From Methanobacteriota archaeon (GTDB taxonomy: Archaea > Thermoplasmatota > Poseidoniia > MGIII > CG-Epi1), in NCBI GenBank assembly GCA_002687355.1, contig NYZZ01000018.1, positions 1-37,101 on the forward strand: a stretch of 37,101 bases of DNA. Direction: 5' to 3'. Both the position numbers and the translations under genes were made by a program. A model generated the notes under the pieces. The model was not told the origin of the DNA. It saw only the letters and a list, made by a program, of their open reading frames with translations, and did no database searches. Shown here in pieces: positions 2 to 28,326 of this stretch. The stretch's first letter is position 1. Each line of letters opens with the position of its first letter.

Positions 2-217
2 CTCTTCGTGCTGACTGACATGCCTCGCCGCGTCTACATCTACGATGAGGCGACCTGGGAACTCTACAACCTCGTGGCCACAATTGGCGCCGTAATTGCC
101 TTCCTGGCACAACTGGTTTTCCTCTATAACCTTGTCAGGAGTTTGAGTCACGGCGAGCAGGCAGGTAGTAACCCCTGGGGCGCCAGCACACTGGAATGGA
201 GTGATTCTGATGGATGA
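2..217 (+). CDS. Heme-copper (cytochrome c type) oxidase subunit I, C-terminal fragment (truncated by window start)
   Basis: Reading frame is open to the window edge (LFVLTDMPRRVYIYDE...); ends ...NPWGASTLEWSDSDG, the typical CoxI C-terminal motif NPWGA-TLEW. Confidence 0.85.
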   Translation, partial: LFVLTDMPRRVYIYDEATWELYNLVATIGAVIAFLAQLVFLYNLVRSLSHGEQAGSNPWGASTLEWSDSDG

Positions 218-1292
218 AGTCCCACTCCGGGGCACCCATCACGTAGAACTCTGGGTTGGTAACGCCAAGCAGGCTGCCTATTACTACCGTAAGGCGTTTG
301 GCTTCTCACAGATAGCCTACTCCGGACTGGAAACTGGCAACCGCGAAAATACGTCGTACGTACTTGAGCAAGGCAAGATCAAGCTAGTCCTGACAACACC
401 CCTCAGCAGCAATAATAGGATTACGAACCACCTCAGGAAGCATGGTGACGGAGTACGAGACATCGCGTTCCACGTTGACGACGTGGAGAGCTGCTTCAAG
501 ACAGTCGTAGAAAACGGCGCGGAACCGCTGGCCGGCCCGCATGAGTTGGTGGGTGAACATGGAATTGTCGCTAAGGCCACCATCAAAACCTACGGTGATG
601 TCGTACATTCGTTCATCTGCGATGAAAACTACGATGGTGTTTTCATCCCCGGATTCCGAGAAGATTCCGAGACCGAATACTCCTTCGGCTTCAAATTCAT
701 AGATCATATCGTTGGTAACGTCGAGAAGGGGCAGATGAATCACTGGGCCGGCTTCTATGCTGACGTGCTCGGCTTTACACAACTAATTCACTTTACAGAC
801 AAAGATATCTCGACGAAATACAGCGCGCTAATGTCAAAGGTTATGCAGAACAGCAATAAATACATCAAGTTCCCGATTAACGAACCGGCCGATGGACTGA
901 ATAAATCGCAGATTCAGGAATTCCTAGACTACTACGGAGGTCCCGGTTCACAGCATATTGCACTCCTCACAGATGATATTGTGCATACTTGCACCCAGAT
1001 GAGGAATGCTGGAGTCGAGTTCCTGGAAATTCCCGATGCCTACTATGATGTTCTAAAAGAGCGAGTTGGCGATATTGAAGAGGACATCGAGATACTACGC
1101 CAGTTGGGCATCTTAGTGGATCGTGCCGGCGAGGGCTACCTGCTACAGCTCTTCACCAAGCCGGTCCAGGACCGACCGACCCTCTTCTACGAGATTATCC
1201 AGAGGAAAGGAAGCGATGGCTTTGGGCAGGGCAACTTCCAGGCACTCTTCGACTCAATCGAACATGAGCAGGGATTACGGGGGAATTTATGA
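210..1292 (+). CDS. hppD: 4-hydroxyphenylpyruvate dioxygenase, copy 1
   Basis: [60 protein letters not shown]; Fe ligands H/H/E retained. ATG at 210 preferred over GTG 201; overlaps the end of the oxidase gene. Confidence 0.92.
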   Translation: MDEVPLRGTHHVELWVGNAKQAAYYYRKAFGFSQIAYSGLETGNRENTSYVLEQGKIKLVLTTPLSSNNRITNHLRKHGDGVRDIAFHVDDVESCFKTVVENGAEPLAGPHELVGEHGIVAKATIKTYGDVVHSFICDENYDGVFIPGFREDSETEYSFGFKFIDHIVGNVEKGQMNHWAGFYADVLGFTQLIHFTDKDISTKYSALMSKVMQNSNKYIKFPINEPADGLNKSQIQEFLDYYGGPGSQHIALLTDDIVHTCTQMRNAGVEFLEIPDAYYDVLKERVGDIEEDIEILRQLGILVDRAGEGYLLQLFTKPVQDRPTLFYEIIQRKGSDGFGQGNFQALFDSIEHEQGLRGNL

Positions 1293-9962: not shown

Positions 9963-9983
9963 CCCCCCGCTCGCGCGGCACCT

Positions 9984-12053
9984 GTGGCCCGACTCCCCGA
10001 TTTCAGGCAGCTCTCCGACAACGTGCGCTCTCTCGACCGCGCCAGAGCGGAGGCGTTTCTTCAAGCGCACTGGCGACTGCTGGTTTTCCTGTTGGTGCTG
10101 CTCCTGCTGGGCGGCTTCTCACCCTCTTCTGGATTTACAAAATTCGCACTGTTGGTCGCCGTTTGGGTCACCACACTGCGATGGGCACAGAATGAGGATA
10201 GACTGGAACCTCTTGGCCTCGATCTCATCTGGGGCCGCTCGTTCCTGATGTGGCGCACTGACCGCGGCAAGCGCTTCATCGAGCGTATGGCGCAGTACGG
10301 CACGATCTGGCGTCGCTTCGGCGATATGGGACTAGTGATGGTCTATGGAACTATGGTGACCATGCTGCTACTGCTGGTGTGGCAGGCGTTCCTGGTTTCC
10401 AGCGTCCCCAAGTCGGCCGCCGTCTCCCCAAAGCTGATGCTAGGTTTGCCAGGCATCAACCCGGTTATCCCTCTCGGCTACGGAGTTGCTGCACTCGCCA
10501 TCGCTGTTGTCGTTCACGAATTCTGCCACGGTATTCTGGCGCGTGTCGCGAAGGTAAAACTGAAGGCACTCGGTCTCCTGTTCTTCGCCGCACCAATCGG
10601 TGCTTTCGTCGAGCCAGACGAGGAAGAAATGATTGCGATGCGGCGAATTGACCGCATGCGACTTTACGCCGTCGGTCCCGCCTCCAATATCACGCTAGCG
10701 TTCCTGTTCGCGCTGCTCTTCTCGTGGGGCATGGTCGCGGCGCTCGAACCAGCTCACGATGGCGCGCTAACTGCCTCTGTCATGGGAGACTATGCTGCCG
10801 GAGAAGCAGGCATCGAGCCATGGATGCTGCTTACCTCGGTCAATGGTACCCCCATCGAGAGTGCCACTGACTTCGGGGAAGAGCTGAACAAGACCTGGGC
10901 GGGACAGAACGTCACTGTACAGGCGCTTGACAAGGGACAGCCACGCAGTTTCGATGTCACCCTAGATGACAAGGGCAGCTACTACCTGCAGTATTACCCA
11001 GATTACTACGAGCCGTGGATGTCGGGCAAGGGGTTCCTCGGCGTCGGCGTGACCGATCAGGCAGCCGTCACTGAAGGACTGGCGCATCCTGCGCAGGACG
11101 GCTGGAGCCTATTGCGCTACATCACGCTACCATTCCTGAAGCTGCAGCCGTTCCCCGAACACTTCACTGCACTCTTCGAGCCGAGTGGACTGCCCGGAGT
11201 CCTGCCGGACGGCCTGTTCTGGATGACGGCCAACCTGTTCTACTGGATTTTTTGGCTGAACCTGATGGTCGGCATGACCAACGCGCTTCCCGCCGTGCCA
11301 CTCGACGGCGGTTTCATCTTCGGCGACTCGGTCGCGGCGCTACTCGACCGGCTGAAGCGGCCGGCACTCTCGGCCGAACGCAAGGAGGAAATCACCGACC
11401 GTCTCGTCTCGGCGCTCGCAATTCTGGTAGTCGCACTGGTCGTGTGGCAGCTGGTCGGCCCGCGGGTGATTGGGACCGATGTAGTATTCCTGCAGGCACG
11501 GTTTGACTCTAGCGCAGAGGAAGGGTGGAATGGCGACAGTTTCGAGTTCGACGCGTCGAGCTCGGTCGGTGGATTCGTCGAATGGGAATGGGATTTCGGC
11601 GACGGAACCACCGCCAATGGCGAGCAGACAAGCCACGCATGGGATACCGGCAAAGCCTATTACGTCGTGCTGACCGCGAAGGACGCAGATGGTAGGCAGA
11701 GTCGTGCCTATCAGCCAATAGTCATCGACCAGCGCTCCGAGAGGAACGACGATGTGGACGCGCTTGACAGCGCCACCGAGGCCATCACCACCAACCCCTA
11801 CAATGACGAGGTACGGGTCGAGATTTCCATCACCGGCGACAACCTGATTTTATCAAGCAGCGTTACCATCACGTTCTCTTCTCCCGAGGGGGAGATACAG
11901 CAGCAATCCATCACCGTCGGCTCCGGTAGTACGCAAGTGCTGGACTGGACCGCCCCGGGCGAGGTAGGTGACTGGGCCATCGAACTGGAGTCAGAGGATT
12001 TCGAGTTTAGCTACGTAGTGGCGTGGGAACTGGATTACCGGCTCTCTGCTTAA
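9984..12053 (+). CDS. Site-2-protease family (M50) membrane metalloprotease with PDZ-like region and C-terminal PKD domain
   Basis: [24 protein letters not shown] (HExxH), [17 protein letters not shown]-terminal [35 protein letters not shown] motif. Confidence 0.88.
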
Positions 12054-12077
12054 TAATTGCATTCATCGCACTCATAA

Positions 12078-12090
12078 CTAATATTAAGGA
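12078..12090 (+). promoter_or_regulatory. TATA-like box upstream of hppD copy 2
   Basis: ctaatattaagga about 30 nt upstream of ATG 12116. Confidence 0.5.
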
Positions 12091-12115
12091 CCCCTTGAGG
12101 CCTGACACAAACCCG

Positions 12116-13204
12116 ATGAGCAAAGACCCGATTCCGCTGAAAGCCATCCACCACGTCGAGCTGTGGGTCGGCAACGCCAAGCAGGCCGCCTACTACTATC
12201 GCCAGGCGTTCGGTTTCTCACAAATCGCCTACGCTGGCCTGGAGACCGGTATGCGCGACCGCGCCAGCTATGTGCTAGAGCAGGGGCGTGTGAGGCTAGT
12301 ACTCTCCACCCCACTCAGCGGTGACAACGGTATGTCTTCACACCTTATGCAACACGGGGATGGCGTACACGACATTGCGTTTCACGTTGATGACGCCGAT
12401 GCTTGCTTCACTGCTGCGGTTGAACGTGGTGCGAAAGTAGCTAGCAAACCGCAGACGCTCAACGATGCAAACGGTTCGGTGCGGCATGCCGCTATACACA
12501 CTTACGGTGACACGCTACACTCGTTCATCTCACACGATGACTACGACGGTCCCTTCCTGCCAGGCTACCACGCTGCACCGGTTGCGGGCGATTCTGTGGG
12601 GCTGCGTTTCGTGGACCATATCGTCGGCAACGTCGAGCTGGGAAAGATGGATGTGTGGGCCGGTTTCTACGCCAACGTCCTCGGCTTCAGCCAGCTACAG
12701 CACTTTAGCGACAAGGATATCTCGACCGAATACAGCGCACTGATGTCCAAGGTAATGGAATCAGATAACGGGCGCATCAAGTTCCCTCTCAACGAACCTG
12801 CCGAAGGGCGACGGAAGTCACAGATTGAGGAATACCTCGATTTCTACGACGGGGCAGGCGTGCAGCACGTCGCGCTACTGACCGATGATATCATCAAGGC
12901 TATCACCAACCTGCGCGCCAATGGTGTCGAGTTTCTGGAAGTGCCTGACACCTATTACGATGACCTACAGGAACGGGTCGGCGTGATTGATGAGGACATG
13001 GAAGCCATTCGCAAGCTGCGCATACTTGTTGACAGGGATGACGAAGGCTACCTGCTGCAACTCTTCACTAAGCCGGTCGAGGACCGGCCAACCCTCTTCT
13101 ACGAGATTATTCAGCGCAAGGGCTCGCGTGGCTTCGGCCAAGGCAACTTCAAGGCGCTGTTCGAGGCGATTGAACGGCATCAGGCCGAGCGGGGAAACCT
13201 CTGA
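12116..13204 (+). CDS. hppD: 4-hydroxyphenylpyruvate dioxygenase, copy 2
   Basis: [24 protein letters not shown]..., [42 protein letters not shown]; followed by homogentisate dioxygenase with ATGA overlap. Confidence 0.95.
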
Positions 13205-14391
13205 TGCACCGCTACCACTGGCTGGGTGAACTGCCGAAGAAACGACACATGGCACTGCGCAAGCCTGATGGCGGTGTCTACTATGAAGAGCTCAAGGGCA
13301 ACAAGGGGTTCGACGGACCCTCCTCGCTGCTCTACCACCTTCACCGTCCCACGGCAGTAGTTGGGACCAAGCTGCTGCGCGAAGTCAAGCTGGAAGAGGA
13401 TCCAGACCGGCAACTACGCATGCGCCACTTCTTCACTGATAAACTGTCGCGCGGCGGCAGCCCCACTATGGATAGGGTGCCGATGCTATTCAACAACGAC
13501 GTCGTGCTCTGGATGGCGTTCCCCGATAAGGAAGACGATTTCTACTACCGCAACGCCCAGGGCGACGAAATCGTCTATGTCAGCGACGGGAGTGGCACGC
13601 TCGAGACGGCCTTCGGGGAATTGGCCTATACTCAAGGTGACTACCTCGTTATTCCACGTGGCATCCTGCATCGCTACCGCCTCGGCAAGGACAAGCAACG
13701 ATTCTTCATCACCGAATCAAAGGGTGAGGTGCGCACGCCAAAGCGCTACAGGAACGAATACGGTCAGCTAATCGAGCGCTCCCCCTTCAGCGAGCGTGAC
13801 TGGCGCGTGCCGGAAAACCTGCAGACCGTTGATAAACAGGAGCCGTCCGTCATCATTGTCAAACAGCACGACCTGCTTACCGAAGTCACGCTAAACCACC
13901 ACCCCTGCGACGTCGTCGGTTGGGACGGCTACTACTACCCGTATGCTTTCAGTATCCACGACTTCGAGCCGATTGTTGGCCGCTATCACGAGCCGCCGCC
14001 AGTCCACCAAACCTTCGAAGGCGATAATTTCGTAATCTGCAGCTTCTGCCCACGGCCGTACGATTTCGGCGAGGACGCTGTGCCTGCACCGTATAACCAC
14101 GCCAACATCATGTCTGACGAAGTCATCTACTACGCTAAGTCAGAGTTCATGTCGCGCAAGGGCATCGAATACGGCTCGATTACACTCCATCCCGACGGTA
14201 TAACTCATGGACCTCACCCCGGCCGCTACGAGGCGAGCATCGGCGCTGAAGCAACAGACGAGCTGGCGGTGATGGTCGATACCTACTACCCACTCAAAGT
14301 TGCCAAACAAGCTCTCGATATCGAGGACGGCGACTATAGTCGTTCCTGGCTTGAGAGCGGAGAGGGCTTCGAGGACGCGCTGGGCACCTAG
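13204..14391 (+). CDS. hmgA: Homogentisate 1,2-dioxygenase
   Basis: [15 protein letters not shown]..., SDGSGTLETAFGELAYTQGDYLVIPRGILHRY, HANIMSDEVIYY, HPDGITHGPHPG. Confidence 0.95.
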   Translation: MHRYHWLGELPKKRHMALRKPDGGVYYEELKGNKGFDGPSSLLYHLHRPTAVVGTKLLREVKLEEDPDRQLRMRHFFTDKLSRGGSPTMDRVPMLFNNDVVLWMAFPDKEDDFYYRNAQGDEIVYVSDGSGTLETAFGELAYTQGDYLVIPRGILHRYRLGKDKQRFFITESKGEVRTPKRYRNEYGQLIERSPFSERDWRVPENLQTVDKQEPSVIIVKQHDLLTEVTLNHHPCDVVGWDGYYYPYAFSIHDFEPIVGRYHEPPPVHQTFEGDNFVICSFCPRPYDFGEDAVPAPYNHANIMSDEVIYYAKSEFMSRKGIEYGSITLHPDGITHGPHPGRYEASIGAEATDELAVMVDTYYPLKVAKQALDIEDGDYSRSWLESGEGFEDALGT

Positions 14392-14401
14392 AGACCTATA
14401 G

Positions 14402-15199
14402 ATGGACGACGAACAAGCCGTTATTTTGCTCCTCTCGGCAATCATGTTCGTGGGGGCATTGGCGTTTGGTTACGTACCACTCGGCCTGCATTTTTCCCAC
14501 AAACGTCTGGAGCAGTTCATGGCAATTAGTGCGGGAGTGCTAATCGGTTCCGCCTTCCTGATTATAATTCCTGAAGGGCTGGAAATTACCTTGGGTGAAC
14601 ATGAGGAGGGGCTAGAGCATGAGGAGGGCCTGGAGCCACTTCTGCTTGGCGGCACTATCCTAGCAGGCTTCACACTAATGCTACTGTTCGAGTTCTTCGG
14701 ACTTCCACATGCGGTCCACCATGAGGCAGATCGGGAATTACTGAGTCTGTCTGCCACAATCGGACTTGTAATCCATTCGGCCGTGGATGGATTAGCACTT
14801 GGCGCTTCGGTCACCAGCGGCACCGAGATTGGACTGATTGTTTTTGCTGCTATTATGCTCCACAAGGGGCCAACCGCTTTCGGCCTCTCTTCATTTCTGG
14901 CACACAACAAGACCGAAAAAACACGGTCGCAACTCTATCTGTTGCTCTTTGCACTTACGTCGCCGATTGCAGCCATCCTTGCGTTCTATACTTTGCGCGA
15001 CAGTGCGCTGGCTAGTGACGTGAATGTCGGGCTGGCACTGCTCTTCTCAGCTGGTACCTTCCTCTATGTTGCGACTGTTGATGTCTTGCCCGAAGTGCAC
15101 AGCCACGAACACAATGATGAATCACCTACCGGTTTCGTCGTGCTCGGGATGCTGCTGGTGCTGTTAATCGCCCTGCTAGGCCCCGGCCACGGCCACTAG
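14402..15199 (+). CDS. ZIP family metal transporter
   Basis: AISAGVLIGSAFLIIIPEG, GLVIHSAVDGLALGAS, AAIMLHKGPTAFGLSSFL, GTFLYVATVDVLPEVH. Confidence 0.9.
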   Translation: MDDEQAVILLLSAIMFVGALAFGYVPLGLHFSHKRLEQFMAISAGVLIGSAFLIIIPEGLEITLGEHEEGLEHEEGLEPLLLGGTILAGFTLMLLFEFFGLPHAVHHEADRELLSLSATIGLVIHSAVDGLALGASVTSGTEIGLIVFAAIMLHKGPTAFGLSSFLAHNKTEKTRSQLYLLLFALTSPIAAILAFYTLRDSALASDVNVGLALLFSAGTFLYVATVDVLPEVHSHEHNDESPTGFVVLGMLLVLLIALLGPGHGH

Positions 15200-15205
15200 G
15201 TTCCA

Positions 15206-16024
15206 ATGCCGCCTGCCTTCATCTACGGTACCGCCTGGAAAGAGCAGCACACTGCTGGACTAGTTGAACTGGCGCTCAAGCAAGGATTTCGTGGTATTGA
15301 TACTGCCAACCAACGCAGGCACTACTTCGAAGCGGCGGCGGGCGAGGCGATTGCGCGAGAGATTGCGGCCGGCACAGTCACCCGCGAGGAACTGTTCCTG
15401 CAAACCAAGTTCACCCACCGACCGGGGCAGGACCAGCGCCTGCCTTACGACCCGAGGGCACCCGTTAGTGAACAAGTGCGGCAGTCCTGTGCCAGCTCGT
15501 TCGAGCACCTGCACACCGACTACCTAGATTCGTACCTGCTGCACGGACCCAGCCAGAGGCCAGGGCTGGCGGAACAGGACTGGGAAGCATGGTCAGCGAT
15601 AGAGGCGCTGCACGCTGATGGCAAGGTGCGAGCGGTGGGAGTAAGCAATGTCGACTACACGCAGCTGGAATTGCTGCTCAGCCGTGCCAACGTTAAGCCA
15701 CAATTCGTCCAGAATCGTTGCTTCGCTGTAAGAGGCTGGGACTTACAGGTAAGACAAGTCTGTCAAAATCATGGCATCACCTATCAGGGGTTCAGCCTGC
15801 TGACTGCCAACCAGGAAATATGGCACAGCCGCCGTGTTGCCGAGATTGGGAACGTTCACAACCTTTCCGCGGCCCAAATTATCTTCTGTCTGGCAATGGA
15901 TCTAGGCATCCTGCCACTGACAGGGACCTCAAACGCAAGTCACATGGCGGACGACCTAGTCTGCAAGCCGGGAATTCTAACGTCCGCGGAAGTCCGGGAA
16001 CTGGCCCCCGATGTCGTTGAATGA
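15206..16024 (+). CDS. Aldo/keto reductase family protein
   Basis: GFRGIDTANQRRHYFEAAAGEAI, LFLQTKFTH, LDSYLLHGPS, GKVRAVGVSNVDYTQLE, catalytic D-Y-K-H tetrad. Confidence 0.9.
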   Translation: MPPAFIYGTAWKEQHTAGLVELALKQGFRGIDTANQRRHYFEAAAGEAIAREIAAGTVTREELFLQTKFTHRPGQDQRLPYDPRAPVSEQVRQSCASSFEHLHTDYLDSYLLHGPSQRPGLAEQDWEAWSAIEALHADGKVRAVGVSNVDYTQLELLLSRANVKPQFVQNRCFAVRGWDLQVRQVCQNHGITYQGFSLLTANQEIWHSRRVAEIGNVHNLSAAQIIFCLAMDLGILPLTGTSNASHMADDLVCKPGILTSAEVRELAPDVVE

Positions 16025-16026
16025 TG

Positions 16027-16782
16027 TCATAATACCATTTTACCGAACAAGATGGCAATCGCGATAAGGATTACACCTCCAAGAAATTTCTGCATTGTGC
16101 GCGGTTCGTACTTGTTCGCACCTAGAGAGGAGCCTGCGGCGCCGCCGACAAGGACCGCCAGTGCCAAGGGGAGAATTGTGACAGGATCCGGGAAATTTCC
16201 TACCCGGGCAGCGAGTCCGGCACAGGAATTCAGCCAGATGAATATTGCCCCTGTAGCGGCAGCCTCCTTCTCGGTTCCCAGTCCCAGGATAATAATCAAA
16301 GGTACCAGATAGATTCCGCCGCCGATTCCCACGGCACCAGCAACAAAGCCGAGGATGCCACCAATCAGAAGCGATACAGCTAATTTTCCCGAAGAAGTGA
16401 GATTTAAGCGTAATTCCGGTCTGTCCCACACGTAAACGCGGAGCGCGACGAGGACCAGCGTTGCCATAAGCAAGAGAAAAAAGATATCTTTCTGAAAATG
16501 CAGTGAGCCCCCAACATATGCCATCGGTATGGAAGTTATTAGAAATGGGGACAGTAACCTGATTCGGCCGTGGCCGCCACGCAGAAAATTAATTGAGGCA
16601 ATGCTCGTTACAATCAGATTCAGAATTAGTGAAATAGTTGGAATTAACAGGTAATGCACTCCAATAATTGCCATCAGCGCCGTGTAGGATGAGCCACCGC
16701 CAAGTCCCACGGATGAATATAGGAAAGCAACTATGCAGAAGGCTAAAGCCAAAAAATACAGATTCGGGATTAATTCGTCCAT
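16027..16782 (-). CDS. TauE/SafE (TSUP) family membrane transporter
   Basis: FLYSSVGLGGGSSYTALMAIIG..., GFVAGAVGIGGGIYLVPLIIILG..., polytopic. Confidence 0.9.
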   Translation of the reverse strand: MDELIPNLYFLALAFCIVAFLYSSVGLGGGSSYTALMAIIGVHYLLIPTISLILNLIVTSIASINFLRGGHGRIRLLSPFLITSIPMAYVGGSLHFQKDIFFLLLMATLVLVALRVYVWDRPELRLNLTSSGKLAVSLLIGGILGFVAGAVGIGGGIYLVPLIIILGLGTEKEAAATGAIFIWLNSCAGLAARVGNFPDPVTILPLALAVLVGGAAGSSLGANKYEPRTMQKFLGGVILIAIAILFGKMVL

Positions 16783-16890
16783 TTATTGTTTTCACCTTGC
16801 AAAACGGAGACTGGGTAAAAGATAACGGGCATTAACTCTTCAAGGTTGAACACCTGAAAGCCTAATACCGCCTGTCTGAAGTCAGCGCCG

Positions 16891-17787
16891 ATGCGTCCTG
16901 AACGTGCGCTACTAAGCAAAATAGTAGATTACGCCGGGCTATTCCCGCCCGCGCAATTGCCGCTAGAAAAAGCAGTGTGTGAATACGCCGCGCACCTTGG
17001 TGAGGAGGAAGCATGGATGCTGGGGCGCTTTATCATTCCTGCACAGCGACTGGAAGAGCTAGAACCGCATCTTGTTATCTTTTCGAAACCGTTGCGTATC
17101 GTTGCATTGGGCAAAGGCGGTCGCTCCGAAGACGAGTATTTAAAAAATCTTAACCAAGACTTAACTGCTATCAAAACCTTCCGCGCCGCTCAAAACACAA
17201 CTATCAGCATCGATAGCTTTGAGGCGCGACTGCCGCCTCTGCCAGTCACCAACACATTCATTGCCAATGTGGCCAACCAATTGCGCGAAGCTGGACTGAA
17301 GCAATCGCACGAATTCGCTGTCGATGGCTGTCTCGAGTCGACCATGGCGGCGCTCGCCGCGGCTGGCGCGGGAGCGAAGCTGCGCTGCGGTGGCGTGACT
17401 GCCGACACCGTTCCGGCGCCCGAACAGGTAGCGCGCTTCATCGTCGCCGCACGTGACGCCGGTGTGCCGGCCAAGTTTACCGCCGGACTGCACCATCCAG
17501 TACGGCATTTCAGCGATGACATCCAGACCGAAATGCATGGTTTCCTGAATCTATATGTCGGTGGAATGCTAGCACACACAACAAACTTCGGATGGCAGGA
17601 GCTGGCTGGCATCATCGCCGACCAGTCACCCGACGCGTTCGCACTGACTGGCGTCGGAGTCGAGTGGCGTGGCCGGCTGGTCCGTAGCGAGGATGCGGCG
17701 CGGCTACGTGAAAACGCGCTGCTTGGACAAGGGAGTTGCTCTTTTGCCGAGCCGGTAGCTGACCTGCGCAATATGGGGTGGCTCTGA
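16891..17787 (+). CDS. Uncharacterised protein translationally coupled to fumarylacetoacetase
   Basis: ATG start, 298 aa; LLSKIVDYAGLFPPAQLPLEKAV..., AKLRCGGVTADTVPAPEQVARFIVAARDAGVPAKFTAGLHHPVRH; stop overlaps the FAH start (ATGA). Confidence 0.85.
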   Translation: MRPERALLSKIVDYAGLFPPAQLPLEKAVCEYAAHLGEEEAWMLGRFIIPAQRLEELEPHLVIFSKPLRIVALGKGGRSEDEYLKNLNQDLTAIKTFRAAQNTTISIDSFEARLPPLPVTNTFIANVANQLREAGLKQSHEFAVDGCLESTMAALAAAGAGAKLRCGGVTADTVPAPEQVARFIVAARDAGVPAKFTAGLHHPVRHFSDDIQTEMHGFLNLYVGGMLAHTTNFGWQELAGIIADQSPDAFALTGVGVEWRGRLVRSEDAARLRENALLGQGSCSFAEPVADLRNMGWL

Positions 17788-19064
17788 TGGCTAGCGAAGC
17801 TAACAACCCAGCGTTGCGGTCATGGATTGAAGTTGAGACGAATTCACACTTTCCAATCCAGAACTTGCCATTCGGAATTTGCCGCTCCCCTGCCGGGGGC
17901 GATCTGCACGTCTGTTCTGCCATTGGGGAGTTCGTTATCGACCTAGCAGCGCTAGACGAGGTCGGAGCTTTCGATGACACACCAGTCGCCGGCACCGAAG
18001 TATTTCATGAACCGACGCTGAACGCTTTCATGGCGCTCGGCCGAGAAGCGTGGTCGGCAACCCGGCAGGCGCTGAGCCAGTTACTGCGCGACGATTGCGA
18101 CGAGCTACGCGATAATACTGAACTGTGCGGACGAGCGCTGCAGCCTGCCAACGAAATAGAGCTACAACTGCCAGTAGATGTCGGTGACTACACCGACTTT
18201 TACTCATCTCGTGAGCACGCTACTAACGTCGGGACTCTATTCCGTGGCGCCGATAACGCACTGCTGCCAAACTGGCTGCACCTCCCTGTTGGCTACCACG
18301 GCCGCTCTTCCTCAATTGTCGTCAGCGGCGCCCCAGTGCGACGACCGCAAGGGCAAACGCGTCCCGATGATAAACAACCTCCCGTGTTTGGTACCAGTAA
18401 CATGGTCGACTTCGAGCTGGAGATGGGGTTCTTTGTCGGTCCTGGCAACGTGCTCGGCAAACCTGTTCCCGTCGGCGAAGCAGAGGAGCACATCTTCGGG
18501 ATGGTACTGGTCAATGACTGGTCAGCGCGCGACATCCAGAAGTGGGAATACCAACCGCTCGGCCCCTTCCTAGCGAAGAACTTTGCGACAACCGTCTCGC
18601 CTTGGGTCGTGACGCTAGATGCACTGGAGCCATTCCGCTGTCGCGGCCCTGAGCAAGAGCCACGACCGCTGGCCTATCTTCAGTGCAACGACGGTGCGTT
18701 CGATATTGCCCTGGAAGTGTGGCTGACGCCTGACGGGGCAACAGCAACGCGAATCTGTGAGAGCAATTTCCGTTATCTTTACTGGTCAATGGCGCAGCAA
18801 CTAGCGCACCATACTGTCGGCGGCTGCAATCTGCGTACTGGTGACCTGCTCGCTTCCGGCACTATTTCAGGGCAAACTAATGGCAGTCGGGGTTCACTAC
18901 TCGAACTTGCGTGGCGTGGAGAGGAACCACTGAGCCTCGATTCGGGCGAGCAACGCAGCTCGGTGCAGGACGGAGATACCGTTACGCTGACCGGCTGGTG
19001 TCAAGGCGACGGCTACCGCATCGGTTTCGGCGAGTGTTCTGGCCAGCTGCTGACCGCACACTGA
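17787..19064 (+). CDS. fahA: Fumarylacetoacetase
   Basis: DYTDFYSSREHATNVGTLFRG, NWLHLPVGYHGRSSSIVVSG, DFELEMGFFVG, FGMVLVNDWSARDIQKWEYQPLGPFLAKNF, TISG..; ATG 17787 chosen. Confidence 0.96.
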   Translation: MASEANNPALRSWIEVETNSHFPIQNLPFGICRSPAGGDLHVCSAIGEFVIDLAALDEVGAFDDTPVAGTEVFHEPTLNAFMALGREAWSATRQALSQLLRDDCDELRDNTELCGRALQPANEIELQLPVDVGDYTDFYSSREHATNVGTLFRGADNALLPNWLHLPVGYHGRSSSIVVSGAPVRRPQGQTRPDDKQPPVFGTSNMVDFELEMGFFVGPGNVLGKPVPVGEAEEHIFGMVLVNDWSARDIQKWEYQPLGPFLAKNFATTVSPWVVTLDALEPFRCRGPEQEPRPLAYLQCNDGAFDIALEVWLTPDGATATRICESNFRYLYWSMAQQLAHHTVGGCNLRTGDLLASGTISGQTNGSRGSLLELAWRGEEPLSLDSGEQRSSVQDGDTVTLTGWCQGDGYRIGFGECSGQLLTAH

Positions 19065-19159: not shown

Positions 19160-22100
19160 ATGGCTCGTCGCACGCGTAGGCGCCGTGAGAGCGCACGCAG
19201 TCGCCCGCTACTACATCCCAGCGCAGCTGCCGCCGTCACACCGACTGCTACGCCAGTCCGAACGCGTGAACCGGTCGAACCGCTCCACTGGCCCAGTGTA
19301 CTATCGCTACTCGGTATTTTCCTGCTCGCACTCACGCTGCGGACTGCCTGGACACTTGAGCCAGCGACCGCCGACGGCTTCCAGCTAACTGGAGGCAGCG
19401 ACCCATACTACCACAAGTGGGTGGTTGACCATGTCAGCGCGACTGGCGAGCACCTAGTCCACGATGATATGCTCAACTACCCCTATGGGGCGAACAACAA
19501 CCGGCCGCCGCTCTTCGACTGGTCCATTGCCATTGCGGGGCTAGCGCTGGCGCCCTTCTTCGGTGACGTTGAGGAGTCGACCTGGTGGGCGATGGAGGTG
19601 CTGCCCGCAATCTACGGTGCACTCATTGTCTTTCCCATTTACGCTATCGGTCGTGCACAGTTCGGCCGGCAAGCGGGACTACTAGCAGCGCTCTTCATTG
19701 CAGCCAACTCAGGGCATATTTCGCACTCGACCCTCTCGCTGGCTGATCACGACTCCTACATCGCGTTCTTTGGAACCTGCGCCTTCTTTTTCTTCATGCG
19801 AGCGCTCACTGAAGGGGGCGATGCCCGCTGGATTGCAGACTGGCGCTCTGTCGAGAGTGTCCGCAGTGGCTTCGCAAACTTCCTGCACTCCGAGCGGCTG
19901 GCGCTCGGCTACGCTGGACTTACGGGCATGACTTTGGCGCTGATTGCGCTAAGTTGGAAGGGATTTCCCTACCTGATGGTCATCATCGCCACCTATCTAG
20001 TACTGCAAATGGTCGTCAACCAGTTTCGAAGAGTCGACAGCCTGACCACTGCGATGCTCGGTATTGTCGCACTTTCGCTGCCACTCCTGATCTCATTTCC
20101 CTACTACCACCATATGGGGTTCATCGAAACCTGGTGGGACGCACCTGCCTACGTCCTGCTCGCCTTTATCGGCGCATCGGCACTGCTGGTGCCAACACGG
20201 GACCTGCCGTGGCTGCTGGTGCTAGGTGGCACTGCCACAGTCGCTACCATCGGTTACCTGCTGCTCACCTATGTCTTCACCGAACTAGGATTTCTGCTCT
20301 TCAGCGGGCAGGGCTACTTCGTCCGTACCAAGCTATTCGACACTATTGCTGAGGCGCAGCCACCCACCTTCGCCAATTTTGTCTTTTCCTTTGGGCCAAT
20401 CTCTGTCTGGTTCGGCTTCTTTGGACTGGCTTGGATGGCATGGCAGCTTTCCGGCGGTCGCACCTGGAAGAAGGACTACCTCTTCATCCTGACATGGTCG
20501 GCGGTTGCACTCTACATGGCGCAGTCCGCCATCCGCTTCATCTTCAACGCTACGCCAGTGATGGCATTGCTCTCGGGCTGGGTCACCTGGCAGCTCATCG
20601 AGCGTGCCGACTTCGGTGCGGTGCTGCAGGCATGGCGGCACTACTGGGGTCGCTATGGGCCGACCGTTTTCTTCCTAGCGCTTGGCTCGCTGTTGACAGG
20701 AGTTCTGTCTATTTTCGTGGTCGGGCTGCTGGAAGGCTTTCTGATTGGTATTCTACTGCTGGCACTGGTGCTGCTCCTCGGCGTCATGGCGGCAGGCGAA
20801 GACCAGTACCGTTTACGTGACCGCCTAAGCGGACTGCGACGCGCGTTCGAGATTAAACGACCGGCAATCGCGTTCGTAGTTGTAGGACTGCTGTTGCTTC
20901 CAAATGGCTTTCAGGGCTACGACGCCGGTATCCCCTACGAATCCAAGAAAGATCATGATACTGCAGTCTACGATTTTCTGCGCTACTCGCTGCTGCGACC
21001 GGATGAGTATCAGTACGCCGAGCGCGCCAATACCACTCTCTATCCTGACGGCGTAGTTGGGATGTATAATCGCACTGATAGCAGCGAGTTGTGGTATCTG
21101 GGGCTCAGTGGCCCGTCTTTCCCGGCCGACTACTGGATTGAGGGGCTAGAGTGGCTGGCGGAGCAGGACACTCACCTGCCGCCCCAGCAGCGACCTGGGT
21201 TCATTTCTTGGTGGGATTACGGCTTTTGGGCCATCGACATCGGAGAGCACCCGACCGTGGCAGACAATTTCCAGTACGGCTACCAGATGGCGGGCAACTT
21301 CATCGCTGCCCAATCAGAACAGGAGGCCATGGCGCTGATACTCTACCGCCTCATTGAACCAGAGGTGGACCGCAAGGGTGACCAGCGTTTCTCACCTCCA
21401 GTACGCGAGGTACTGCTACAGCACTACAGCGAGGATCAAGTGACGCAACTGGAGCATATCATCGCCAACGCGAGCGACTATATCCCTGACGATGACCCGG
21501 AGCTTAACCGACGTAACGCCGCCATCCGCGCCGGACGACCCATCTTGATGTCACAGCCGACCGATGTATTGGCTGACGCCATCTACGGCATCGAACAAGT
21601 GACTGGGCACTCCATTCGCTACTTCGCCGCCGACACGCGCCTTATGCCCTACTCGGCCGATAATACCGGTATCCTCTACGCGCCGGTAACACTCGCCGAT
21701 TACGAAATTGGAGATTTCGTCGAGGTGCAAGCTGTTCTCTCTAACGGCGAAACACTCGGCTTCACCGACGCTACAGAGATGCTGAAGCAGGACCCCACCC
21801 TGACCGTTACCGCACAGGAACTGACCTACAAAGAACGCTTCCTGAACTCTATGTTCTACCGTGCCTTCATCGGCTGGTCTGGTCCTGACCTAGGACGACC
21901 AATCGAAGATGGGATTCCCGGTATCTCCGGTGCGCTGGGTAGCGATCGTAACCTGCCCCCTATCCCGGCCTGGAACCTAACCCATTTCCGGTTGGTCGAG
22001 TTCAATAGCGGACTGCGCATCCTGAAATACTACGACGGCGCTGAAATATCTGGTGTTGTACGTACCCCCGACGGGGCGCCAGTACCGTACGCCAACCTGA

Positions 22101-25100
22101 CGCTAGTCGATGAGCTCCGCACCCCGCACGCGACCACCACCACCGACGACTATGGTCGCTACAGCCTGCTGGCGACTGCCGGTAACCACTCGCTGGCGGT
22201 CTCACTCGGAGGCTGGGAGAGCGACCAGGAAAAACTCTTCCTCACATCCAACAACTTGCTTACCATCCGCGAGTCGCTGCTAATCTCGGAGGCTCAGGCT
22301 ACCCGCCAGACGGATTGGCAAATTGAGTTAGACTTGGAGGTCGAACCGGCCAGCGTCAGCGGTCGACTCTTTTGGGACAAAACCGATGGAGAGCAGCCAC
22401 TCACTGGCGTCAGCGTTACTGCCCGGCAAGAATCTACAGACCGTGAATTCAGTGCGCTTAGCGATGGTGACGGTAACTACGTGCTGGAAGGTCTGGCCCC
22501 GAGTGAATACGTAATCACTGCCGACTACCGCGGTCACACGCTCGAGCTGGCGAGCTACGAGGGCGGTGCTGCGCTGCGTGCAGGACAGGCAGTAACGGCC
22601 GACGGCAGGTTCGCACCGGCACTGGTGTCGGGACGACTAGACTTCTCGCCGGAACTGACAGCGCGCCCGGTAGGGCTAATCCTTCACGACCACACCAACG
22701 GAACACTGATGGAACAGACCACTAGTGGAATGTTCGACTTCGGTGAACTACTTCCGGGCAGTTATACACTACAGCTGCTAGCTGACGACCTGCACAGCGA
22801 GTGGGGTAACAATACCCTGCCACTCGAGCTGGAAGCAGGAGATTTTGTGAGTCAGAACCTGAGTCTAGTGGGCGGCTTCCGACTGGAAGGGGTACTCACC
22901 AGCGGCGGTCAACCAATCTTTGATGAACAAATTTCCATCAAGGAAGTGAGTGGACAGCGCACTGCCGAGGTTTTCAGCACCGCCAGTGGCTATTTCACCA
23001 CAGTTCTACCGCACGGCCTATACGATTTGTACACCTTACAGGAGCATGGCGACGCTGTTACAGTCTATCTGGACCGAGTAGATAGTGAAAGCTATAGCGG
23101 GCCACTGGACGCGAGGCTAGTGGCAGGGAGTCGTGTCAGTGGCACGCTATTCATAGATTTGAACGGTAACGGACTTCACGATCACGACCTAGACGAAAAG
23201 ATAGCTGGTGGCATCTCGGTGCACTTCGACTCGCCCTACGGGAAGATTGAGGTTCCAACCAATTCTTTAGGTGATTACGAAGCGATTCTGCCACAGGGAG
23301 ACTTCACTGCCCACGCACTGAAAATGGACGAGAGGGGCGCGATGGCAGTGTTGCGGGTAATACAGGTGGAATACGGCAGCACGACTGCCGACTTGCCGTT
23401 GCTCCCGGCACAAGACTTGATGGTGCGGCTATATGAACAGCACCTAGGACAGGACCTGCCAGCTGATGGGTTGCTACAGCTGGAAGGCGACGGAGGTAGT
23501 CTCTCTACCTGGGTAACCGAAGCGGGCGGCGCTCTGATTTTGCCGTCAGGCAGCTACCGCCCGACGCTTGAGAAAAACGGCTACCACCTGATCGATGGGG
23601 AACGCTTCCAGCACTACGCAATACAGGAAGTTGTGCTGGAAATAGAGCGCGACCCGGTCGAAGTGAGTGGGCAACTGCTCTACTCCGGTGCGCCCGTAGG
23701 TGAATTCCAGATTAGCTTTATCCCCCTTAGTCAGCCCGAATATTACTATTTAAATTTCAGCACCGACGCATATGGCAATTTTGCGGTGCAACTACCACCC
23801 GACCAGTATCTCTATAGATTCAGCCGCGAAGTCGACGGCGTACGCTATCTAGCAGAGGGGCTGCTAGAACTAGAACTGGCTTCGCCGCCAGTTGCACTCG
23901 GAGTTGTCGAGACGGAGCTAGCGCTACATGTTGCAGGCCACGCCATTGGCGGAGCCGTGTCACAAGGAGGACAGCTGCATTTCACAGATACCGAGGACTC
24001 GGAACGCATTATCACGCTTGAGGCGACTCGCATTGACGGCTTCAATGGATGGGTCCCTCCGGGCGAATGGTGGGTACAATTCAATGATTTTTCGAACAGC
24101 AACCACTGGAGTTGGTTATCGACACTTCAGCTGGATACGCCGGTGGAGTTGGAGTTGGGGTTGACGCAGGGTCACTACCTGCACGGCGCGCTGCTATCGG
24201 GGCCAACTGGCCAAGTAGTCGAGGAGCCAGTAACCCTACAACTCAGCTCACCCGGTGGCACCCTGTTTATCGACGTGGAAGGTGGGGACTTCGATCCGCG
24301 CGATCTGCCGCCCGGCGAATATCTGCTTGATGCTGAACCAGAAGGCTTCCTGCCCTACTCGCAGGCAATCGAAATCGATGGTGCAACCTTCATGACAATA
24401 GAACTTGTGCCTGAGCCGGTCCCTCTGACGCTAAACCTGAGCTACCGCAACGCAAGCGGGAGCAAGCTGCCGCTAGCAGCAGGCATTAATCTAACACTCA
24501 GCCGCGAGGGGTATAGCCAAACCTGGACCACTGACGAGAACGGCAGCTTGACGCTGCCAGAGCTAATCCCAGCACGCTACGACTTGCTTGTCGACGCACA
24601 GCCCGGTGGAGGTGGCGACCGATTCAGCTTAGATCGCAGTCTGAACCTGCGCCCCGGACAAGGACACCAATACTTCGACTACACTGCTAGCTGGGAAGTA
24701 CAGGTGCAGGGTCGTGTGTTCTACGACCGCGACTTTGACGGCAAAACCGATGTAAACGAGCTGCTCCCCGATGCACAGGTCGAGTTTCATGATATGGCAG
24801 GTGCGACGATCATTGCTAGTCTGCAGACCAACGCTAACGGTGACTTCACTACCTGGCTGGTGCCTGGAAATTACTTGCTCTGGACCCGCTCCAGCACGGA
24901 CGCTAGCTACGTACTGCTTGAAACCCTAGAACTTGAAGGCTCTCTTGATCAAGATTTCTCGCTACAGCGTGGAGTCCACTATGCGCCCACCTTCCTGCGT
25001 GGCGACGACGGGAGTCCACTACCGGACCGGACTGTGACAGTCAGTGGCGGCCCAACGCCACTCGAGCTGCAGGCCAGCGACGGCACTCTCGAGCTACTGC

Positions 25101-26008
25101 TACCGGCAGGCGAGTATCATTTGGAGGCTGAATGGACCGAGCTGGAGTCTAGCCCCGACTGGATTTACGTTCTGGACCGCGATGAAACACTGACGCTGGA
25201 ACGCGACGGCGAGGTGTCGACTATCGAGCTGGAGCGGCAGCTGCTCCGAGGGGTCGACATCGTACTTGACCAGCAAATGGCCACGGGCACACTGGGGCAA
25301 TCGATTGACTTCGTGTTCAACTTGACTGGCAGCGGCTACCGCACTACTACCTTCAGCGCCTCGGTCTCGGACGCGCCAGCCAACTGGACCGCTAACTTCG
25401 GCTCGGGAGGACAGGTAACCGTTGCACAGGGCGAGACCGTGCAAACGATGTTGACCGTGATTCCCGACGACGGAGTCGTGCCTGGTGCATTCACCTGGTG
25501 GCAGGTTAGCTTCACCTGGACTGGCAGTGGCGAGCAAGACCCGCTTACCTACAACTACGAGCTACAGGTTATGCCACAGCAGCGACCGGCCCCTGATTTC
25601 ACAATTAGCGAGGTGACTTGGTCACCCTTTGAGTCTATCGTTACGGGGAGCGAGGTAACGCTGCGCGCGACAGTGCAAAACACCATCCATAATTCCGGGA
25701 CTCACTTTCCGCAGGTGACATTTTACGCGGGTGACGAAATCATCGAGATGACTAGTGCCGAGTTCGACGGTGAAAGCGAGTGGCTAGTCGAGACCACCTG
25801 GACGGCTGATGAGGGAAACACCGTAATTCGAGTTATGATCGACCCCGAGTCGCTGTTCGAGGAGCAAGATGAGACAAACAATGAACAACTGCTGACGCTG
25901 GCCGTCTACACACCAGTCGAAGAGAGTGAGGAGACGCCTTGGATACTAGGAGCTGCTGTCGTGCTGCTGCTAATGATTGCCTACTTCGCGTTCCGGTTAC
26001 GTCGCTAG
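19160..26008 (+). CDS. aglB: Dolichyl-phosphooligosaccharide-protein glycotransferase (AglB/STT3) with very long C-terminal repeat extension
   Basis: GGSDPYYHKWVVDH, SLADHDSYIAFFG, polytopic membrane region, FISWWDYGFWAIDIGEHPTVADNFQYG (WWDYG motif); 2282 aa; C-terminal TM ILGAAVVLLLMIAYFAFRLRR. Confidence 0.93.
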   Translation: MARRTRRRRESARSRPLLHPSAAAAVTPTATPVRTREPVEPLHWPSVLSLLGIFLLALTLRTAWTLEPATADGFQLTGGSDPYYHKWVVDHVSATGEHLVHDDMLNYPYGANNNRPPLFDWSIAIAGLALAPFFGDVEESTWWAMEVLPAIYGALIVFPIYAIGRAQFGRQAGLLAALFIAANSGHISHSTLSLADHDSYIAFFGTCAFFFFMRALTEGGDARWIADWRSVESVRSGFANFLHSERLALGYAGLTGMTLALIALSWKGFPYLMVIIATYLVLQMVVNQFRRVDSLTTAMLGIVALSLPLLISFPYYHHMGFIETWWDAPAYVLLAFIGASALLVPTRDLPWLLVLGGTATVATIGYLLLTYVFTELGFLLFSGQGYFVRTKLFDTIAEAQPPTFANFVFSFGPISVWFGFFGLAWMAWQLSGGRTWKKDYLFILTWSAVALYMAQSAIRFIFNATPVMALLSGWVTWQLIERADFGAVLQAWRHYWGRYGPTVFFLALGSLLTGVLSIFVVGLLEGFLIGILLLALVLLLGVMAAGEDQYRLRDRLSGLRRAFEIKRPAIAFVVVGLLLLPNGFQGYDAGIPYESKKDHDTAVYDFLRYSLLRPDEYQYAERANTTLYPDGVVGMYNRTDSSELWYLGLSGPSFPADYWIEGLEWLAEQDTHLPPQQRPGFISWWDYGFWAIDIGEHPTVADNFQYGYQMAGNFIAAQSEQEAMALILYRLIEPEVDRKGDQRFSPPVREVLLQHYSEDQVTQLEHIIANASDYIPDDDPELNRRNAAIRAGRPILMSQPTDVLADAIYGIEQVTGHSIRYFAADTRLMPYSADNTGILYAPVTLADYEIGDFVEVQAVLSNGETLGFTDATEMLKQDPTLTVTAQELTYKERFLNSMFYRAFIGWSGPDLGRPIEDGIPGISGALGSDRNLPPIPAWNLTHFRLVEFNSGLRILKYYDGAEISGVVRTPDGAPVPYANLTLVDELRTPHATTTTDDYGRYSLLATAGNHSLAVSLGGWESDQEKLFLTSNNLLTIRESLLISEAQATRQTDWQIELDLEVEPASVSGRLFWDKTDGEQPLTGVSVTARQESTDREFSALSDGDGNYVLEGLAPSEYVITADYRGHTLELASYEGGAALRAGQAVTADGRFAPALVSGRLDFSPELTARPVGLILHDHTNGTLMEQTTSGMFDFGELLPGSYTLQLLADDLHSEWGNNTLPLELEAGDFVSQNLSLVGGFRLEGVLTSGGQPIFDEQISIKEVSGQRTAEVFSTASGYFTTVLPHGLYDLYTLQEHGDAVTVYLDRVDSESYSGPLDARLVAGSRVSGTLFIDLNGNGLHDHDLDEKIAGGISVHFDSPYGKIEVPTNSLGDYEAILPQGDFTAHALKMDERGAMAVLRVIQVEYGSTTADLPLLPAQDLMVRLYEQHLGQDLPADGLLQLEGDGGSLSTWVTEAGGALILPSGSYRPTLEKNGYHLIDGERFQHYAIQEVVLEIERDPVEVSGQLLYSGAPVGEFQISFIPLSQPEYYYLNFSTDAYGNFAVQLPPDQYLYRFSREVDGVRYLAEGLLELELASPPVALGVVETELALHVAGHAIGGAVSQGGQLHFTDTEDSERIITLEATRIDGFNGWVPPGEWWVQFNDFSNSNHWSWLSTLQLDTPVELELGLTQGHYLHGALLSGPTGQVVEEPVTLQLSSPGGTLFIDVEGGDFDPRDLPPGEYLLDAEPEGFLPYSQAIEIDGATFMTIELVPEPVPLTLNLSYRNASGSKLPLAAGINLTLSREGYSQTWTTDENGSLTLPELIPARYDLLVDAQPGGGGDRFSLDRSLNLRPGQGHQYFDYTASWEVQVQGRVFYDRDFDGKTDVNELLPDAQVEFHDMAGATIIASLQTNANGDFTTWLVPGNYLLWTRSSTDASYVLLETLELEGSLDQDFSLQRGVHYAPTFLRGDDGSPLPDRTVTVSGGPTPLELQASDGTLELLLPAGEYHLEAEWTELESSPDWIYVLDRDETLTLERDGEVSTIELERQLLRGVDIVLDQQMATGTLGQSIDFVFNLTGSGYRTTTFSASVSDAPANWTANFGSGGQVTVAQGETVQTMLTVIPDDGVVPGAFTWWQVSFTWTGSGEQDPLTYNYELQVMPQQRPAPDFTISEVTWSPFESIVTGSEVTLRATVQNTIHNSGTHFPQVTFYAGDEIIEMTSAEFDGESEWLVETTWTADEGNTVIRVMIDPESLFEEQDETNNEQLLTLAVYTPVEESEETPWILGAAVVLLLMIAYFAFRLRR
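22035..25575 (+). other. Array of carboxypeptidase-regulatory/SdrD-B-like beta-sandwich domains inside AglB ORF
   Basis: Recurrent xVSGxLxxxxG..LxxxxVxxxx..G.......T...G.Y...LxPGxYxLxxx pattern (for example ISGVVRTPDGAPVPYANL; VSGRLFWDKTDGEQPLTGVSV; VSGTLFIDLNGNGLHDHDLDE; VQGRVFYDRDFDGKTDVNELLPDAQV). Confidence 0.75.
25590..25915 (+). other. CARDB-like domain near AglB C-terminus
   Basis: PDFTISEVTWSPFESIVTGSEVTLRATVQNTIHNSGTHFPQVTFYAGDE...VRVMIDPESLFEEQDETNNEQLLTL. Confidence 0.7.
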
Positions 26009-27092: not shown

Positions 27093-27553
27093 GCGGAACC
27101 CTTCTGGCGGCAATCTCGCCCGATATGGTTATCGGCCGTGATGGAGGAATTCCATGGCACTACCCGGGCGATCTGCGGCGATTCAAACGACTGACATTGG
27201 GCCACACGATCGTGATGGGGCGCCGCACCTGGGAATCACTGCCAAAACGGCCGCTGCCGGGACGGCGTAACCTAGTACTCACTTCACGCAACCTCGACGG
27301 GTGTGAGTGCTTTAGGTCGCTCGCTAAAGCAGTGGCGGCTATAGATGGTGAAATGTTCTTCATCGGTGGTGCACAGCTATACCGTGAAGCGCTAAGTGTC
27401 GCTGACCTCATTGACCTTACATTGGTGCCTGATGAGGTACCGATGGAGGGGAGTGTGCTGTTTCCGCCGATTCCTCCGGAGTGGGAACCAGGGCCAGTTG
27501 AGCCGCATCCCGACGAGCCGAAGCTGCGGTTGCAATGCTGGGCACGGCGCTAG
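27089..27553 (+). CDS. folA: Dihydrofolate reductase
   Basis: LLAAISPDMVIGRDGGIPWHYPGDLRRFKRLTLGHTIVMGRRTWESLP, FIGGAQLYREAL; GTGA overlap with thyA stop. Confidence 0.95.
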   Translation: MSGTLLAAISPDMVIGRDGGIPWHYPGDLRRFKRLTLGHTIVMGRRTWESLPKRPLPGRRNLVLTSRNLDGCECFRSLAKAVAAIDGEMFFIGGAQLYREALSVADLIDLTLVPDEVPMEGSVLFPPIPPEWEPGPVEPHPDEPKLRLQCWARR

Positions 27554-28326
27554 CCACTACGCCAGTCGGGGTCGTTGCGCAGCACCCACAACGGGCTGCC
27601 AATGATGTAAATGGCGGTGAACAGTGTCGCCACGGTCCACAACAGTTCCCACACAGCGTAGCGCTGCCACGCGGCTAGGATAGCGAGCTGTAGCAACAGC
27701 ACTGCTCCGAAAATAGGCAGCAGCATCTGCCCACGTGCCTTCAGAAGTGGTAACGTCGTAACCATAGCGAATGCCATCAGTCCAAGCAGAGCTGGCGGCC
27801 ATGTCGCTGTGTTGCCGGTGAGCCAGGAAAAACGTAGACAAACAATTAGCACCAAGACCATCATCGCTGGTGTTGGCATCCCTGAGAAATGGCGCAACTG
27901 CTCCTCACGCTCATACGTGAAGCGCGCCAACCGCAACACTCCTAGCAAACCAACCAGTAACGCACCTGTCAAAGCCAGCATATTTGGCACGTCCCAGTCA
28001 CCACTGAGTGAAAGCGCCGGACCGCGCGACAGCTCGTACCAGAGTGTATAGATGAGTGCCGTCGGTGCGAGGCAGAAGCTAACCATGTCAGCCATTGAGT
28101 CTAGCAGTGGTCCGAAGCGGTGGCTCGAGCCGTAGCGGCGCACAAGCATTCCGTCGATGCTGTCAAGAAACGCTCCGGTCACTAACAGTAGCATTCCAAT
28201 CAAGATTGCGCTGCGCGTCCCATCAAGGAAGTAGGTAATCGCTAGCAGGCCACACCCTGCGTTGCCGAGTGTAGCCAGGTCGCCATATGATATCTGAAGC
28301 AAGGGTCGGAAGAGCTTGCGCAGCAT
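27550..28326 (-). CDS. pssA: CDP-alcohol phosphatidyltransferase, phosphatidyl/archaetidylserine synthase-like
   Basis: TGAFLDSIDGMLVRRYGSSHRFGPLLDSMADMVSFCLAPTALIY (DxxDG...G...D...D motif). Confidence 0.85.
   Translation of the reverse strand: MLRKLFRPLLQISYGDLATLGNAGCGLLAITYFLDGTRSAILIGMLLLVTGAFLDSIDGMLVRRYGSSHRFGPLLDSMADMVSFCLAPTALIYTLWYELSRGPALSLSGDWDVPNMLALTGALLVGLLGVLRLARFTYEREEQLRHFSGMPTPAMMVLVLIVCLRFSWLTGNTATWPPALLGLMAFAMVTTLPLLKARGQMLLPIFGAVLLLQLAILAAWQRYAVWELLWTVATLFTAIYIIGSPLWVLRNDPDWRSG

Follow-up and report, generated by a model that had tools for sequence, protein, structure and literature searches.

The window, a 37,101-nt stretch of contig from a Marine Group III (MGIII) genome (GCA_002687355.1, NYZZ01000018.1), encodes a giant AglB of 2282 residues (Table 1). 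Its reading frame runs from an ATG at 19160 to a stop at 26006-26008 with zero internal stops, and its product is the sole STT3 match of the 918-kb assembly (∼71% complete; STT3 Pfam at residues 79 to 474, 47.0 bits, cut-off 24.5). Judged from sequence, the protein is an AglB/STT3 oligosaccharyltransferase (OST), predicted to transfer glycans to N-X-S/T sites. The initial annotation had described a single OST of this length with a long stalk, in which ∼950 STT3-like residues precede ∼1300 residues of beta-sandwich domains, a CARDB domain and a final transmembrane (TM) helix; the single ORF, the STT3 match and the catalytic motifs bear out the former, and Pfam, modeling and hydropathy the latter. 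Genomic neighborhood analysis places the gene outside a glycosylation cluster, with fumarylacetoacetase and thymidylate synthase on either side. The genes just upstream match HPPD/glyoxalase, homogentisate dioxygenase and fumarylacetoacetase, likely a tyrosine/homogentisate breakdown cluster, and a second glyoxalase/HPPD-like gene is encoded elsewhere in the window.

Table 1. Features of the AglB gene and other genes of the window (aa, residues of AglB unless given as a length)
Feature	Positions	Strand	Basis
Giant AglB gene, 2282 aa	19160..26008	+	Uninterrupted ORF and Pfam matches
Multi-pass catalytic membrane domain, aa 44-580	19289..20899	+	STT3 Pfam; 3waj/5gmy match at 75-470; GSD, DHD, TIAE
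Globular-domain central core, aa 581-950	20900..22009	+	WWDYG; 3vgp/3vu0 AglB globular-domain matches
Stalk domain D1, aa 956-1050	22025..22309	+	CarboxypepD_reg; KYYDGA junction, shared by most AglBs in the phylum; conservation within MGIII
Stalk domains D2-D12, aa 1051-2029, transthyretin/prealbumin-like	22310..25246	+	All-beta AlphaFold model; boundaries by eye
NEW3-like domain, aa 2030-2139	25247..25576	+	Weak NPCBM_assoc match in the window, over cut-off in L081
CARDB domain, aa 2140-2250	25577..25909	+	PF07705; PDB 2l0d and others by profile; conservation within MGIII
C-terminal TM helix and basic tail, aa 2259-2282, WILGAAVVLLLMIAYFAFRLRR	25934..26005	+	Hydropathy; helix in model
Second glyoxalase/HPPD-like gene	201..1292		
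Cupredoxin/TSP3-repeat protein, 557 aa	2972..4645	+	
Likely tyrosine/homogentisate breakdown cluster	12023..19064	+	HPPD/glyoxalase, homogentisate dioxygenase and fumarylacetoacetase matches
Archaetidylserine-synthase-like gene	27550..28326	-	
Archaeosortase A fusion ORF, 515 aa	28326..29873	-	TIGR04125

The catalytic half (residues 1 to 950) was read against published motif definitions (PMC8342417, PMC3703281). The two DXD-type motifs, of EL1 and EL2, are represented by D81 in GSDPYYH and by D196 and D198 of DHD (residues 196 to 198), invariant in 19/19 AglBs. The TIXE motif of EL5 is present as TIAE (residues 395 to 398), and WWDYG (residues 684 to 688) is invariant among the 19 AglBs. Only H197 (≥90%) and I396 are exceptions to the invariance of the motif residues. 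For the DK or MI motif, no clear DXXKXXX(M/I) or MXXIXXX(I/V/W) is seen by eye, and variant forms need a structure (PMC3703281). Simple hydropathy of the MGIII relatives gives only about 8 to 12 TM segments against the 13 expected for the catalytic domain; an AlphaFold model of residues 1 to 1090 was of low confidence (pLDDT 49.5) and was set aside.

The AglB-L proteins of A. fulgidus (868 aa; PDB 3waj, 5gmy, 7e9s) and Pyrococcus share the catalytic membrane domain, the two DXD-type motifs, TIXE and WWDYG. They differ beyond the core, which beta-rich peripheral units IS, P1 and P2 can follow or interrupt (PMC3703281): these units are at most what the AglB-L proteins add, and neither a 12- to 14-domain stalk nor a C-terminal TM anchor has been described for them. 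The best NCBIfam match of the window protein is TIGR04154, the archaeosortase A system-associated STT3 (214.7 bits, residues 48 to 479), which lies below the family cut-off of 450 and covers no more than the initial portion of the model; an archaeosortase A gene is encoded in the same window.

The stalk follows the core, which ends at THFRLV, and begins with KYYDGA at residue 956. Repeat motifs and predicted strands, with boundaries set by eye, give 12 transthyretin/CarboxypepD_reg-like domains, one NEW3-like domain, one CARDB domain and a TM helix. CarboxypepD_reg reaches 152 bits over the whole protein (cut-off 32.3) in four stretches, the best at residues 963 to 1030; SdrD_B is above its cut-off, SpaA is also matched in Pfam, and CARDB (PF07705) is found at residues 2145 to 2242 (37.7 bits, cut-off 22.7). 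The NEW3 match (residues 2070 to 2110, 14.7 bits) is under its cut-off. D5 and D11 bear DxNGN/DRDFDG-type loops that look like putative calcium-binding sites. The topology of AglB implies an extracellular stalk with a membrane attachment at each end. The final TM helix and the basic end of the initial annotation are kept in the MGIII relatives, where the basic tail after the helix reads RLRR in the nearest relatives and RSRR in most others. Structure prediction, which the annotation had proposed, yields for residues 1083 to 2282 an all-beta model that ends in a helix (mean pLDDT 81); its pTM is 0.39, and the relative placement of the stalk domains is therefore unreliable. A Foldseek search with the stalk returned alpha-2-macroglobulins, pilins and other Ig-like strings, all at very low TM-scores, and gave no functional clue.

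Comparison with relatives establishes the integrity of the gene, which the initial annotation had allowed might be two genes fused through sequencing error. The closest contigs belong to MGIII metagenome-assembled genomes (MAGs), L032 (93% identical) and L033 (88%), and both carry the same single ORF. The start MAR.TRRRR is kept in the MGIII relatives, and the same intact frame is found in nearly all genomes of the class. Values of dN/dS (Nei-Gojobori) were obtained against L032, L033 and the more distant L055. The stalk segments give 0.083-0.183 against L033 and 0.115-0.207 against L032, with zero nonsynonymous changes in CARDB against L032; the values against L055 (0.273-0.335) are unreliable, as dS exceeds 1.4. 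The catalytic half gives 0.05-0.07 against L032/L033 and 0.10-0.17 against L055, and for the short tail of 32 residues the ratio against L033 rises to 0.28. A joining of two genes by sequencing or assembly error has a precedent of sorts in the split form known from L057 (MGII), and nothing in the window points to it; because the close MGIII MAGs share the ORF and stalk dN/dS is low, we regard it as ruled out, with only a vanishing probability left to it, the identical frame recurring throughout the class and in MAGs that are independent of one another. By these alignments, the window AglB is real and intact, with its stalk under purifying selection.

Within MGIII, stalk length is held (about 1320 of 1327 positions aligned, 35-47% identity). 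D1 is the best conserved stalk domain (55% identity, like part of the core) and CARDB reaches 45%, while most middle domains are lower (27-47%); that D1 and CARDB stand above most of the middle is as expected if both stalk ends have fixed contacts. Across lineages, stalk length ranges from about 300 to 2000 aa. This range would suit growth by neutral domain duplication with little function, an explanation that the near-constant length within MGIII and the low dN/dS make very improbable.

The size of the window AglB, which the initial annotation implied to be exceptional, turns out to be commonplace, both within the class and in the majority of families sampled from the phylum; the annotation had itself named such routine length as a refutation of its point. 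An STT3 match is present in 93 of 99 relatives. Complete-looking frames measure about 2290-2375 aa in MGIII (2293-2375 aa in the family of the window genome) and about 3000-3320 aa in MGII, many of the shorter values being frames cut by contig ends. The annotation had proposed a comparison of AglB lengths across Poseidoniales; those of MGII (Poseidoniales) are longer still, and the genome itself belongs to MGIII and not to Poseidoniales in the strict sense. In a phylum-wide sample, of which 20 genomes were re-examined, most other families have frames of about 1850-2750 aa among the matches listed, and frames >1850 aa occur under at least 31 family labels, a figure read from the matches listed and not a census. 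The remaining families show, among the matches listed, only frames of about 900-1430 aa, some of them cut by contig ends. Every complete AglB >2000 aa has a terminal TM helix, which the eight measuring 916-1426 aa lack. Versions of the stalked AglB are standard across most of the phylum Thermoplasmatota, among the families sampled. In the MGII AglBs (L057-L071, L073), the STT3 region is preceded by roughly 200-300 residues more than in MGIII, and WWDYG lies at about 840-1010, as against 640-740. The AglB of the MGII genome G021, which consists of a single contig, comes as two overlapping frames, 1603 and 1624 aa long (L057, 6943-16520, minus strand), with a frameshift or a sequence error as candidate causes. 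A contig filed under a Flavobacteriaceae MAG (L048) encodes an MGIII-type AglB that groups within MGIII, and is probably misbinned.

In BLASTP, most long AglBs outside MGII match the MGIII stalk, but those of MGII hardly do. Profile comparison aligns this stalk with that of MGII over almost its whole length (E 2.7e-41), and with stalks of other lineages at E 2e-125; tandem repeats can inflate both values. A KYYxGA-type junction occurs in all MGIII and MGII frames reaching that point and in many others; the simple pattern misses L075, L076, L079, L085, L086 and L093. In a quick catalytic-domain tree, the long forms fall in one 50-row group (support 87). Also in this group are three rows that are incomplete or split, and the short L085, whose branch is long. 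As the tree is midpoint-rooted and its long branches meet, we put a single origin of the long AglB forward as plausible. These data also bear on whether the stalk might be an adhesin or ligand-binding arm for which AglB serves merely as anchor. CarboxypepD_reg, SdrD_B, SpaA and CARDB do occur in adhesins and pilins, but the stalk stays with AglB over the whole phylum behind a conserved junction, and an arm tied to the membrane at both ends is poorly suited to reaching out; we consider such a role improbable.

The stalk is also rich in candidate acceptor sites. N-X-S/T-X occurs 12 times in the window stalk, against 5.2 expected from shuffles (z 3.2); most stalks hold more sequons than their shuffled versions, with z as high as 19.6, but about half of those from MGIII show no such excess. 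The sequons at N1217, N1532 and N2054 are present in 11/11 aligned MGIII stalks. Because of this enrichment and of the invariant sites, the stalk is itself likely glycosylated. The sequon data do not choose among the three roles raised in the initial annotation, acceptor presentation, an envelope tether and a surface structure. The stalk could be a tether or coat, spacing the enzyme within a surface glycoprotein layer or forming an abundant glycosylated cover, a reading that is possible if doubtful. Strings of Ig-like domains that are acidic and rich in sequons are a typical feature of surface proteins, the best fold matches are surface or adhesive strings of this kind (pilins, TIE protein, S-layer SbsC), many cultured Thermoplasmatales are without an S-layer (PMC5155288), and a stalk evolving faster than the core also fits a spacer or a surface-exposed coat. 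However, one copy per genome, fused to a catalytic enzyme, is an odd design for a coat, and conservation is higher in D1 and CARDB, at the two ends, than in the domains between them.

We tentatively favor another role, in which the stalk is a built-in accessory scaffold of AglB, an arch over the active site and a single-chain counterpart of accessory subunits. In eukaryotes, OST accessory subunits and TRAP (ribophorin, OST48, TRAP alpha/beta) place lumenal beta-sandwich domains beside STT3, and the stalk would do in one chain what these separate subunits do. They are possible functional analogues of the stalk, but are separate chains without sequence match, and no accessory-subunit family matched the window stalk by sequence. 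Homologues of OST1 and TRAP are present in Asgard archaea (PMC11417166). In the proposed scaffold, D1 would pack against the catalytic core, the middle domains would form an arch or rod above the active site, taking up and retaining polypeptides as these leave the translocon, and CARDB and the TM helix would close the arch. If the stalk sequons are used, as is probable, the enzyme would also be one of its own substrates. Some families have a short stalk or none, so the stalk is not needed for catalysis as such. The wider proposition, a phylum-wide OST with acceptor-handling machinery built in as a glycosylated, doubly anchored arch, would make one chain the parallel of a eukaryotic OST with its several subunits and translocon partners; on present data it is rather unlikely. 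AglB is known from much smaller enzymes, such as the 868-aa AglB-L of A. fulgidus. If most families of a phylum that counts abundant marine plankton among its members have an AglB two to three times that size, with a doubly anchored and sugar-bearing stalk, then truncating a single chain can test what an OST needs beyond its core, and cell-surface models of these archaea must include the stalk.

Eukaryotic NOMO, of the BOS complex, resembles the stalk in its tandem prealbumin-like domains and C-terminal TM segment, and NOMO2 is the first match of the stalk profile in the PDB (E 5.7e-17). Unlike the stalk, NOMO is not fused to an OST. A specific homology was rejected: a bacterial CarboxypepD_reg giant matches NOMO2 equally, and the resemblance is therefore generic. 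No NOMO Pfam model matches the window protein, and NOMO_5th gives five sub-cut-off matches across 145 genomes, in frames of AglB-fitting length. Tandem CarboxypepD_reg is also seen in a 21.5-kb plasmid gene of Priestia megaterium (NZ_CP085418.1, 16859-38338, part in L101), with 26 stretches in the first 2621 aa.

A literature search, with most subscription journals outside it, found no paper describing a stalked giant AglB. A metatranscriptome paper reports an MGII oligosaccharyltransferase as differentially transcribed and leaves its size uncommented (PMC9723583). The protein is of a known kind, AglB, and its enlarged, stalked, phylum-wide form is apparently undescribed in the literature searched.

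The archaeosortase A gene of the window encodes a fusion to a phosphatidylserine/archaetidylserine decarboxylase domain (146.7 bits for TIGR04125, cut-off 75) and adjoins the archaetidylserine-synthase-like gene; the same pair lies near AglB in the MGIII genome G003. The ArtA of Haloferax volcanii acts together with PssA and PssD (PMC7157517). The window AglB lacks, by eye, the PGF-type motif of archaeosortase A substrates before its C-terminal TM helix (tail EETPWILGAAVVLLLMIAYFAFRLRR). The AglBs of L051, L052 and L081, whose genomes have archaeosortase A genes, end in a PGFE-TM-basic arrangement that resembles an archaeosortase signal by eye; NCBIfam lists no PGF-CTERM match for these three. 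Judged by eye from its tail, the 557-aa cupredoxin/TSP3-repeat protein of the window is likely an archaeosortase substrate. In L034, a 2255-aa ORF (9972-16739, plus strand; tail LPAPSLLAVLLLLGGVALRRRR) lies between thymidylate synthase and the archaetidylserine-synthase-like gene, a position at which the window has no counterpart.
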